Shown: in pieces, positions 36,362-39,716 of the stretch
Layout of the letters: each line of letters opens with the position of its first letter
Numbering within the stretch: position 1 is the stretch's first letter
Source: Dehalococcoidia bacterium
GTDB taxonomy: Bacteria > Chloroflexota > Dehalococcoidia > Bin125
Direction of reading: 5' to 3'
NCBI GenBank assembly: GCA_022825855.1
Contig: JAJDWB010000017.1
Location: forward strand, 1 to 47,518
DNA length: 47,518 bases
Notes under the pieces: model-generated
The model's database searches: none
What the model saw: only the letters and a program-made list of their open reading frames with translations
What the model was told of the DNA's origin: nothing
Translations under genes and position numbers: made by a program

Positions 36362-36877
36362 ATGGCTGGCATCTCGGTCCTGGTTCCTTTTGATCGCTCG
36401 CCGGAGTCGCGACGGGGTCTGGAGATCGCCTTCCACCTGGCCCGCGTCGACCGGCGCAAGTCGCGCGTGCTCCCGATCTACGTCGTCGAGGTAGATCGCG
36501 CCTATCCGGTCGACAGCGACCTGCCCCAGCAATCAGCCCGCGGCGAGGCCTGCCTGGCCGAGGCCGAGGCGGCCGCACGTGAGGCCCGCGTCTCCTGCGA
36601 CGCCATCCTCCTGCAAGCCCGCAGCGCCGGCCCGGCCGTCGTCGACGTGGCCGCAACCGAGAAGATCGACCTGCTCGTCCTGGGCGTCTCCCACGCCAAC
36701 GCCGTGCACACCAGCGGCGGCGAGCAAACCGCCCTCGCCCGTCGCGCCGGCGCCGGCATCGACCTCGGCCACACCGCCGACTACATCCTCTCTCACGCAC
36801 CCTGCGAAGTCGTCGTCGTACGCGAGTCCGCCTATCACCATGACCGCTTCGCAGACCAGAACCAGCTCGAGCGCTAA
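36362..36877 (+). CDS. Universal stress protein family protein
   Basis: UspA-fold protein of 171 residues. VLVPFDRSPESRRGLEIAFHLA is the usual N-terminus and VVVVRES the terminal strand. The nucleotide loop is unusual. After LLVLGVSH the expected G-2x-G-9x-G[ST] pattern is replaced by a longer loop with LGHTADYILSHAPCEV, so ATP binding is uncertain. The gene lies just upstream of two TrkA-type genes; Usp and KTN proteins often co-occur in potassium uptake modules. A CGAGCG-CTAA-CGCTCG hairpin (36868-36883) spans its stop codon. Confidence 0.8.
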   Translation: MAGISVLVPFDRSPESRRGLEIAFHLARVDRRKSRVLPIYVVEVDRAYPVDSDLPQQSARGEACLAEAEAAAREARVSCDAILLQARSAGPAVVDVAATEKIDLLVLGVSHANAVHTSGGEQTALARRAGAGIDLGHTADYILSHAPCEVVVVRESAYHHDRFADQNQLER

Positions 36878-36904: not shown

Positions 36905-37333
36905 ATGCGCGTCGTAATCATGGGCTGCGGACGACTCGGCTCGACGCTCGCCCGCGAACTCGACCACGAGGGCCACCGCGTCACCGTAATCGACGTCGAC
37001 TCGGCCGCCTTCAACTGGCTCGAGGACGATTTCCGCGGCGTGACGATCGTCGGCGCCGGAGAAGATATCGACGTGCAACAGGCGGCCGGAGTCCCACGCG
37101 CCGACATCTTCCTCGCGCTGGCCAATGGCGACAATCGCAACGCCATGGCCGTCCAAGTCGCCAAGCACATCCACGGCGCGCCCCGAGTGGTCGCCCGAAT
37201 CTACGATCCGGAGCGAGCCGACGTCTACCGCCAACTCGGCATCAACGTCGTCAACCCGACCACGATCCTCGACGAGATGGTCCGCGAGGCTGCCTTCGGC
37301 CAACGCGACGACGACACCGGCGAGGAGCGTTGA
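36905..37333 (+). CDS. TrkA-N domain protein (first potassium-uptake regulatory subunit)
   Basis: KTN/RCK domain that binds NAD(H) or nucleotides and gates Trk/Ktr potassium channels. VVIMGCGRLGSTLARELDHE is the Rossmann loop, VTVIDVD the first acidic strand end, and the core ends near MVREAAF. At 142 residues only the N-domain is present; the TrkA-C domain is absent. The following TrkA gene supplies both. Stop and start overlap (TGATG), so the pair is coupled. The Trk/Ktr pore subunit is not in the window. Confidence 0.88.
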   Translation: MRVVIMGCGRLGSTLARELDHEGHRVTVIDVDSAAFNWLEDDFRGVTIVGAGEDIDVQQAAGVPRADIFLALANGDNRNAMAVQVAKHIHGAPRVVARIYDPERADVYRQLGINVVNPTTILDEMVREAAFGQRDDDTGEER

Positions 37334-37995
37334 TGTACATCATCGTCGTCGGAGGGGGCAAAGTCGGCCGCGGCGCCGCGCGAGACCTGATCGGTATGGG
37401 TCATGAAGTCTGCGTAGTCGAACGCGACGCCAACACCGCCTGGTCAATCAACAACGAACTCGGCGAAGTCGCCCTGCTCGGCGACGGCGCGGAGATCCAT
37501 GTCCAGCGCGCCGCCGGCATGAACCGCGCCGATGTCGTCGTCGCCTGCACCGGCCGCGACCAGGCCAACCTCGCCGTCGCCCAGACTGCGCAGACCCGCT
37601 TCAACGTCGGCAAGGTCATCGCTCGGATCAACGATCCGCGCAACGAACGCATCTTCCGCACCCTCGGCTTCGACTACACGATCTCCGCAACCGCAGCGAT
37701 CGTCAACGCGATCGAGCAGGAGGTCAGCGCCGGTCTCTCGCGCCTCACCCAGTTCCGTTCGACCGCCTTTGTCCTCGCCGAAGTCTCTATTCCCCAGGTC
37801 GCGCCCGCGGTCGGCTGCACCGTGCGCGACCTCTCCCTGCCGCCCAACACCGTCCTGGCTCTGATCATTCGCGACGACGATCAGCCTGAGGTACCCGGAC
37901 CAAACACGCTGATTCAGGCCGCCGATGTCGTCATCGCCGTCACCCAGCCGCAACACGAGGCCTCGCTCCGCGAAGCCCTGACCGGAGTAACCTAA
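37333..37995 (+). CDS. TrkA-N/TrkA-C protein (second potassium-uptake regulatory subunit)
   Basis: Contains an N-terminal KTN domain (IIVVGGGKVGRGAARDLIG, VCVVERD, NRADVVVACTGRDQANL) and a C-terminal RCK_C domain from about residue 145 (VAPAVGCTVRDLSLPPNTVL). The ATG at 37333 shares a base with the previous stop and gives 220 residues. Two-gene KTN pairs of this type (one short, one with TrkA-C) recur in Actinobacteria and Chloroflexota. It is probably the ligand-sensing half of a potassium transporter whose pore is encoded elsewhere. Confidence 0.88.
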   Translation: MYIIVVGGGKVGRGAARDLIGMGHEVCVVERDANTAWSINNELGEVALLGDGAEIHVQRAAGMNRADVVVACTGRDQANLAVAQTAQTRFNVGKVIARINDPRNERIFRTLGFDYTISATAAIVNAIEQEVSAGLSRLTQFRSTAFVLAEVSIPQVAPAVGCTVRDLSLPPNTVLALIIRDDDQPEVPGPNTLIQAADVVIAVTQPQHEASLREALTGVT

Positions 37996-37999
37996 CCCC

Positions 38000-38872
38000 A
38001 TGCCATACCACGATCCAAAAGAGCTGCGACGCATTTCTTATCTCGGTCCTGCCGGAACATTCACTCAATTGGCTGCCAGCATTTACAAGCGGGATGCTGA
38101 GCTAATCCCATATCCAAGCATCACTGCGAGTGCCGAAGCGGTGTTGCAACAGGAGGTCGATGCTGCAGTTGTCCCATTCGAGAATGCCCTCGAAGGCTCC
38201 GTAGGCGAAACTCACGACATCATCGTCCATCGCTTCAACCTCGCAATCTCCGGCGAGTTGGTGATTCCGATCGAACAATGCCTGATACTGCCGCCCGGCA
38301 CTGAGCTTCAAAACACGCAGATTGCTCTGGTCCTTTCGCATCCACAAGCGCTCGGACAGTGTCGCCGGTTCATCGAGCGGCGCTTCCCCAATGCCAAGAC
38401 ACAGGCCACTCTCTCCACTTCAGAGGCCGTCGAACGAATGATGGAGGCACAAGTCGATCCTGAGCTGAAGGACCGAGTCGTCGCCATTGCCCCGCGTCAG
38501 GCCGCTGAAATACACGGTGCCCGGATCGGCGAAACCGCCATTCAAGACAATGACCTGAACGCGACACGCTTCGTCGTCCTTACACCACACGGACATGCAC
38601 CGACTGGAGAAGATAAGACGACTTTCGTGTTCAAGACCATGAACACTCCCGGTGCCTTGGTTCAGGCACTGAAGTGTTTCGCGGACCAAGAGGTCAATCT
38701 GACACGTATCGAGTCTCGCGCCGCCAGAGAAGGTCTAGGCTCGTATCGCTTCATGGTCGATTGCGAGGGCCACCGTGATGATGAAAAGCTAAGGGCGGTG
38801 GTCATCCAACTCGAGACCCAAGTTGAGGAGTGGCGAGTGGTCGGTAGCTATCCCAAAGCGCCCCGACCCTGA
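38000..38872 (+). CDS. pheA: Prephenate dehydratase
   Basis: Converts prephenate to phenylpyruvate in phenylalanine synthesis. The PDT domain (about 10-185) has ISYLGPAGTFTQLAA at its start and the catalytic TRF in DLNATRFVVLTPHG. The C-terminal ACT domain has NTPGALVQALKCFADQEVNL and the ESR motif that binds phenylalanine. The product is 290 residues. Sampled lines of the gene range from about 48% to 63% G+C, near 55% overall, while adjacent KTN coding sequence reaches about 77%. Codon use is visibly less GC-biased than its neighbours, consistent with recent acquisition or gene replacement. Confidence 0.95.
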   Translation: MPYHDPKELRRISYLGPAGTFTQLAASIYKRDAELIPYPSITASAEAVLQQEVDAAVVPFENALEGSVGETHDIIVHRFNLAISGELVIPIEQCLILPPGTELQNTQIALVLSHPQALGQCRRFIERRFPNAKTQATLSTSEAVERMMEAQVDPELKDRVVAIAPRQAAEIHGARIGETAIQDNDLNATRFVVLTPHGHAPTGEDKTTFVFKTMNTPGALVQALKCFADQEVNLTRIESRAAREGLGSYRFMVDCEGHRDDEKLRAVVIQLETQVEEWRVVGSYPKAPRP

Positions 38873-38888
38873 ACCGACCCGGACCGTC

Positions 38889-39716
38889 ATGCCGGAAATC
38901 CCCGAGCTGCAGCACATCTCACAGGTCCTGACCGCCCGGCTCGCCGGGCGGCCGATTACGAACGTCGACATCCAGAAACCGATCGTGATCCGCCTGCCGC
39001 GGGAAGACTTCGAGGCCGGCCTGCTTGGTGCGGAGATTCTCGCCGTGCGCCGCAGCGGCAAGTTCCTGCTCCTCGAAACCGATCGCGACAGCGTGATGGC
39101 CGTCAACCCGATGCTCAACGGCCGCTTTCAGTGGATCGACGGTCCCGACGGCAAGCGCAAGGCCCACGCCAGAACCTGTTTCACGCTCAAGTTCCAGTCG
39201 GACGAAGGCGAGCTGGGCATTCGCTACATCGACGAGCGCTACCTGGGCAAGGTCTACCTGGTCGACGCCGAAGACCTCGACCAGGTCCCCGTGCTCAATG
39301 AACAGGGTCCCGACGCGCTCGACCCGGCGCTCGACGAGGACGCGTTCCTCACGCGCCTCAAGCGCTACCGGGGACAGGTCAAGAACGCGCTCGTCAACGC
39401 CCGCTTCATCGCCGGGATCGGCAATGCCTACTCCGACGAGATACTCTTCCAGGCCGGCATCCACCCTTTCACCAAGATCTCGAGCCTCGATCAGGAACGG
39501 CGCATTCGACTCTACGCCGCGATGCACGAGACGCTGAACTGGGCCGCCGGCATCTCCGCTGTCGAAATCGGCAACCGGATCGACCGCAAGCCCCGGGACT
39601 TCCTCAACGTCCACCGCAAGGGCGGGCAACCCTGTCCCCGCTGCGACCACACCATCTCCGAGGTCTCGCCCAACCGCCGCGTCACCTCGTTCTGCCGGAC
39701 CTGCCAGCCCGACTAA
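38889..39716 (+). CDS. mutM: Formamidopyrimidine-DNA glycosylase (Fpg/MutM family)
   Basis: Base-excision enzyme for oxidised purines. Pro2 and Glu3 follow the initiator (MPEIPELQ in place of the common MPELPEVE), Lys58 lies in RRSGKFLLLE, and the C-terminal zinc finger is CPRC...CRTC near the end. The helix-2-turn-helix region (VNARFIAGIGNAYSDEILFQ) is typical. ATG 38889 is chosen over a start inside pheA; the product is 275 residues. It is 16 bases downstream of pheA. An Nei-like specificity is possible. Confidence 0.93.
   Translation: MPEIPELQHISQVLTARLAGRPITNVDIQKPIVIRLPREDFEAGLLGAEILAVRRSGKFLLLETDRDSVMAVNPMLNGRFQWIDGPDGKRKAHARTCFTLKFQSDEGELGIRYIDERYLGKVYLVDAEDLDQVPVLNEQGPDALDPALDEDAFLTRLKRYRGQVKNALVNARFIAGIGNAYSDEILFQAGIHPFTKISSLDQERRIRLYAAMHETLNWAAGISAVEIGNRIDRKPRDFLNVHRKGGQPCPRCDHTISEVSPNRRVTSFCRTCQPD

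Follow-up and report, generated by a model that had tools for sequence, protein, structure and literature searches.

Base composition falls abruptly over a single gene in the window analysed here, a whole contig (C15) of 47,518 bp. The question that this locus raises is whether that gene, pheA, descended with the cluster in which it lies or took the place of an earlier native copy. The genome holding the window (G000) is a draft assembly of 2.82 Mb in 22 contigs, with a completeness of 96.2% and an estimated contamination of 4.4%. Locally the gene order is usp, trkA1, trkA2, pheA and fpg, all on the forward strand, and the features of the locus are collected in Table 1.

Table 1. Features of the pheA locus, in window coordinates.
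Feature	Position	Strand	Remarks
usp (universal stress protein)	36362..36877	+	Native-looking flank
trkA1 (TrkA-N)	36905..37333	+	Native-looking flank
trkA2 (TrkA-N/TrkA-C, KTN)	37330..37995	+	Native-looking flank; 92–93% identical to G011 and G004
trkA2–pheA spacer, 4 bp	37996..37999	+	Same length in 9 of 13 readable congeners; upstream composition edge
pheA	38000..38872	+	Monofunctional prephenate dehydratase, PDT + ACT; anomalous gene
pheA codons 65–67	38192..38200	+	Contain two (E65, S67) of the out-group residues E65, S67, R122, F124, Q182 and E256
6-residue insertion within pheA codons 149–160	38444..38479	+	Absent from the other 14 sequences of alignment A1
TRF motif, pheA codons 189–191	38564..38572	+	Intact; present in 141 of 141 aligned PheA
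ESRA in place of the ESRP ligand motif (ACT), pheA codons 238–241	38711..38722	+	
pheA–fpg spacer, 16 bp	38873..38888	+	Downstream composition edge
fpg/nei-type DNA glycosylase	38889..39716	+	Native-looking flank; ATG at 38889 set by congener comparison, not the upstream TTG given in the ORF list

The first-pass annotation of this DNA had described pheA as markedly lower in GC than its neighbours, and our measurements bear this out. The gene has a GC content of 56.3% and a GC3 of 0.600, whereas GC3 in the neighbours is 0.82–0.89 (GC/GC3 of 0.664/0.838 for trkA1, 0.658/0.824 for trkA2, 0.654/0.885 for fpg and 0.717/0.872 for the part of usp within locus L002). The 48–63% GC ascribed to individual lines of pheA was reproduced with 60-bp lines from position 38041, the line at 38581 standing at 48.3%. 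The 77% quoted for adjacent KTN coding sequence is correct for one line of the second KTN gene, that starting at 37801, but it is a local maximum, and the KTN genes average 66.2% and 65.5%. At 60-bp resolution, the GC drop starts at the start of pheA and stops at its stop codon, and GC3 is low over all of the gene (0.48–0.66 across five segments). The pheA genes of 14 congeners have a GC3 of 0.74–0.86.

We compared pheA with a genome sample of 776 kb in 41 pieces, the window included, from which 488 genes of at least 150 aa were called. GC3 in these genes is 0.864 ± 0.042, and pheA lies below all 488 (z = −6.2); its codon adaptation to the genome, at 0.401, is likewise below all 488 (z = −4.2), with the four neighbours at 0.678–0.724. 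A GC3 within the genome distribution, the outcome that the first-pass annotation had named as speaking against a foreign origin, was thus not what this check returned. The gene caller is codon-based and disfavours genes of low GC3, pheA itself being absent from its list, and because of this bias we added a caller-free scan with sliding windows of 870 bp. Only 0.84% of 14,798 such windows, counting those over pheA, have a GC content of 0.563 or less. Windows at or below 0.59 fall into 15 segments, one of which is pheA. A Pfam scan of ten ORFs in nine of the other 14 segments (leaving out the second ORF of L148 and the segments in L153 (two), L158, L169 and L178) gave defence- or toxin-antitoxin-type matches in six of the nine: GmrSD, ApeA, HsdR-N, Mrr-N, DUF4411 with an IrrE-type peptidase, and DUF4268 (below cut-off). 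The other three held RDD/zinc ribbon, bPH/SHOCT and ClpP-like protease matches, and no core biosynthetic enzyme was matched among these ten ORFs. The proteins of ApeA-HEPN, GmrSD, Mrr-N and HsdR-N type lie on low-GC islands of G000 at L168:2525-4273, L167:554-2503, L177:9473-12166 and L171:4890-5894, and are probable phage-defence genes.

The slot that pheA occupies is conserved within the genus. The trkA pair precedes pheA in 13 of the 14 congeners (in the remaining one, L012, the contig breaks off at this point), and fpg follows in all 14. The pheA–fpg spacer measures 6 bp in three sister genomes, G003 (L012), G011 (L013) and G004 (L016), referred to here as the trio, and 13–24 bp in the other 11. 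About 0.5 kb (485–577 bp) separates trkA2 from pheA in G002 (L004) and G006 (L008). Across the pheA loci L003–L031, a TrkA2 match adjoins pheA in 27 of 29, one of these matches being weak (26% identity), and the usp–trkA–trkA–pheA order is widely kept, although it is not obvious what potassium control would have to do with phenylalanine synthesis. A single PDT gene was found in G000 (a draft, 96% complete), with no native orthologue elsewhere in the genome, and a survey of the family found exactly one PDT gene in 19 of 20 genomes and none in the remaining one.

As the first-pass annotation had read it, pheA is intact: its 290-codon ORF matches both PDT (PF00800; E = 1.5e-53) and ACT (PF01842; E = 4.1e-8) above cut-off, as it does the NCBIfam model for PheA (NF008865). 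With an undamaged ORF, TRF motif and pair of domains, and as the product of the sole PDT gene found, the G000 protein, judged from its sequence, probably keeps the function of its relatives, converting prephenate to phenylpyruvate. Two changes set it apart. PMC10845154 names GALV and ESRP as motifs through which the ACT domain binds its ligand; GALV is present in G000 PheA, but ESRP reads ESRA. Of 141 aligned PheA, 140 have P at position 241, and only G000 has A. In the region of the insertion, columns 153–160 are filled in no other of the 141 proteins, the exact place of the insertion being alignment-dependent. The two changes together might lower sensitivity to phenylalanine, in which case the lineage would have come by a deregulated enzyme, through takeover or through evolution of its own, for example to overproduce phenylalanine for a partner organism; we consider such an adaptive change improbable.

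Among the genes compared, excess protein divergence is confined to pheA. G000 PheA is 56–59% identical to each of the 14 congeners (54–57% in tblastn segments), which are 71–97% identical to one another and 88–91% within the trio. The corresponding values between G000 and the 14 congeners are 71–93% for TrkA2, 71–84% for Fpg and 76–94% for RpoB. Expressed as a log-distance ratio of pheA to rpoB, the 14 pairs that include G000 have a median of 6.03 (1.92–8.55), compared with 2.09 (0.76–4.48) in the 91 other pairs, and the ratios of trkA2 and fpg to rpoB are alike in both kinds of pair. Some terminal features of the protein are shared with close relatives: the C-terminal tail of G000 PheA is genus-like, and the protein begins M-P in G000 and in three of three sister genomes, compared with 0 of the 11 other congeners. 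The trio has peculiarities of its own: besides the short spacer described above, its PheA carries one inserted residue near column 85, and its PheA stem is long (0.25). RpoB of G007 and G008 (L210, L211) shares only 76% identity with that of G000, and the RpoB tree places the two next to G006 on a branch of 0.48; their PheA is far less set apart, at 74–81% to other congeners.

Synonymous sites proved less informative. Fourfold-site identity between G000 and the trio is 0.35–0.39 in pheA (0.29–0.30 expected from composition), 0.65–0.66 in trkA2 and 0.55–0.65 in fpg (0.43–0.47 expected for both), and 0.50–0.61 in usp (expected 0.43–0.49); inside the trio, pheA reaches 0.62–0.72. The excess over expectation is clearly smaller in pheA than in trkA2 or fpg, and usp lies in between. 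The fpg comparisons were made without the L016 rows, whose register was lost (identity of 4%, or no more than 8 sites usable). For trkA1, fourfold identity is only 0.49–0.52 (expected 0.42–0.47), though the protein is 95–96% identical. Synonymous divergence alone thus fails to set pheA apart from its native neighbours, and saturation at such sites is not counted here in favour of transfer, since the native trkA1 is equally near it.

The first-pass annotation had proposed comparing a PheA tree with a tree of ribosomal proteins, in place of which we used RpoB, and the match that would have refuted a foreign origin was not obtained: the best trees disagree, although approximately unbiased (AU) tests do not exclude a vertical placement. 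In the RpoB tree, G000 groups with G003, G004 and G011 with support of 100/100 on an end branch of 0.049, and its RpoB is 92.7–93.9% identical to those of the trio; a program warning stated that bootstrap values had not converged. In a 61-row PheA tree, G000 joins the genus clade but falls outside the 14 congeners and the sister genus G017 with support of 96/92; its end branch there is 0.68 (0.58–0.75 over analyses), and in a PheA tree without G017 the 14 congeners still exclude G000 at 94/92. The TrkA2+Fpg end branch of G000 is 0.053. A 19-row PheA tree gave G000 no resolved position. Constraining G000 to the trio in three PheA data sets cost 1.6, 6.8 and 15.2 log units, and the constraint was not rejected in any of them (AU p = 0.202, 0.292 and 0.185, respectively); the cost of 15.2 is that under a mixture model, and under LG+F+G4 it is 14.8. 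Grouping G000 with all 14 congeners to the exclusion of G017 cost 5.2 log units and was not rejected either (AU p = 0.129). The PheA proteins of the trio and of G017 are also on long branches, so PheA may run fast in the group as a whole. In the sister genus G017, PheA (L030 1501-2343) has a branch of 1.54 and is 44% identical to that of G000 and 51% to that of G011; TrkA2 and Fpg of G017 are 65–71% identical to those of G000 and G011, and its pheA has a GC3 of 0.80, slightly below its trkA genes.

Individual residues carry a mixed signal. We defined genus-fixed sites as those with the same residue in all 14 congeners and another residue on which at least 60% of out-group rows agree, which gave 24 sites in PheA. 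At these, G000 has the genus residue in 14, the out-group residue in 6 and neither in 4, and the genus residue is present at every genus-fixed site of its trkA1 (11/11), trkA2 (23/23) and fpg (9/9). When vertical descent was simulated with a long G000 branch, six or more out-group residues arose in 0 of 300 simulations, compared with 5% under the free tree. Shares are a fairer test, because the simulations yield about 16 such sites and the data 24. Taken as a share of all genus-fixed sites, the observed level was reached in 0 vertical versus 25% of free-tree simulations (300 simulations), and as a share of changed sites only, in 2.3% versus 27.7%. Ten sites diagnostic of the trio, at which it differs from the other congeners, point the other way: G000 PheA has the trio residue at five, the other residue at two and neither at three, and five or more trio residues occurred in 13.7% of vertical but only 0.7% of free-tree simulations. 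A trio-residue share of one half was reached in 0 of 300 simulations of either kind. The out-group and trio patterns would be squared in one way if the trio had retained ancestral residues, and in another way by a native, fast-evolving gene. The out-group-like sites lie mostly mid-gene (65, 67, 122, 124 and 182, with 256 in addition) and the trio-like sites mostly towards the gene ends (27, 226, 270, 275 and 281). A mosaic gene was considered and not adopted, because GC3 is low throughout pheA and mean identity to the trio and to the other congeners differs by no more than 5 points in any compared stretch.

No donor was found among 737 other genomes of the phylum (G001–G737), searched as overlapping sets (61 relatives, 393 genomes of the class, 400 of the phylum, 20 of the order, which are the family genomes, and 61 relatives of G132), and the congeners remain the nearest among the matches listed. 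Outside them, the matches listed in these searches are at most 51% identical over most of the PheA length, and a 61-residue PheA fragment in G221 reaches 52%. The best match listed to G000 PheA was 38.6% in 83 plasmid records and 38.7% in 17 phage records, and the single match in IMG/VR was 33%. One search of GTDB contigs returned nothing and in another the best among the matches listed, at 55%, was a congener; a DNA-level search of plasmids with pheA returned no match.

Taken together, these observations are best explained, in our judgement, by replacement of the native pheA in place with the orthologue of a related lineage, that is, by xenologous gene displacement in situ, which we regard as probable. 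Displacement jointly explains the composition, its edges, the confinement of the divergence to PheA and the out-group residues. We infer that the donor would have been a lower-GC relative, outside the genomes searched, that branched before the genus split from G017, with G000 as the recipient, and that its pheA may have entered as a fragment of about 0.9 kb recombined between two native flanks, or else by an insertion after which the old copy was lost. The main competing explanation is that pheA is native and vertically inherited and evolved very fast in the G000 lineage under selection that had relaxed or changed, possibly along with its feedback control, while its GC drifted down. Acceleration of a native gene accounts for the trio residues, the M-P start that is otherwise found among congeners only in the three sister genomes, and the absence of a donor. 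It is not rejected by the AU tests, and it also agrees with the long PheA branches of the trio and G017, with the near-saturation of the native trkA1 at fourfold sites, and with two changes unique among 141 PheA. However, it needs a PheA end branch of 0.58–0.75 against 0.049 in RpoB and 0.053 in TrkA2+Fpg, a fall in GC3 below the range of the congeners' pheA, and six changes to out-group residues, a level reached in none of the 300 vertical simulations whether taken as a count or as a share of genus-fixed sites. We therefore view it as possible but rather unlikely.

Two further explanations fare worse. If the family ancestor had carried two pheA copies and G000 had retained the one that its relatives lost, the stem placement of its PheA would follow with no donor at all; yet the family survey found no genome with a second PDT gene, the G000 gene sits in the conserved slot rather than elsewhere, and its low GC3 would be left unexplained, so that such hidden paralogy seems very improbable. 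Still less credible is that assembly or binning spliced foreign DNA into this contig, as the number of contigs and the estimated contamination of the draft might suggest: the flanks on both sides look native and share one contig, the gene order and the 4-bp upstream spacer are the usual ones, both joins would need to coincide with gene ends, and the closest matches to the protein belong to this genus. Returning to displacement, the first-pass annotation had called pheA "acquired or replaced", for which the best trees and the composition speak, while the AU results (p = 0.129–0.292), the lack of a donor and the 5 of 10 trio residues speak against it. "Replaced" fits better than "acquired", because this is the sole PDT gene found and it sits in the congeners' own slot. 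Replacement itself is only partly supported, given that a vertical placement survives the AU tests, the searches gave no donor and part of the sites are sister-like. As to its being recent, the one pointer is the unameliorated GC3. Since no donor group was identified, and the donor may be unsampled, we put displacement forward as the most likely explanation and not as a settled one.

This locus matters because a core biosynthetic enzyme seems to have been exchanged alone within an otherwise native cluster, the change in composition coinciding with the ends of the gene. The case also illustrates how inspecting base composition visually can point to a replacement that gene content and gene order would not betray. 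Displacement makes a prediction, namely that an as yet unsampled relative of lower GC is the donor. Among the papers listed by a limited literature search on pheA transfer, none concerned this group.

Compared with other PDT–ACT enzymes, represented by NF008865 and the solved relatives 4lub (E = 4.4e-40 to G000 PheA), 3mwb, 6vh5 and 2qmx, the G000 protein shares the domain order and the TRF motif but has ESRA for ESRP and the six-residue insertion, each in 1 of 141 aligned sequences. Displacement in situ is itself already known, and PMC4455057 cites a 2003 paper by Omelchenko and colleagues whose title names it. The replacement of a native gene by a foreign orthologue is termed xenologous displacement, and cases in situ and mosaic operons are on record in PMC1274311 and PMC4455057, the latter giving transferred fragments of about 1200 bp, or one gene on average; further cases are presented in PMC9425974. 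The present case would differ from known displacements in situ in that the donor is a near relative, and an unsampled one, rather than a member of a distant group, that the edges coincide with the gene ends and that the tree conflict, seen in the best trees, does not reach significance in AU tests. It has in common with xenologous displacement the kept gene order, the absence of a second orthologue and a composition foreign to the recipient, and, as in the known cases in situ, a foreign orthologue would stand in the native gene's place.
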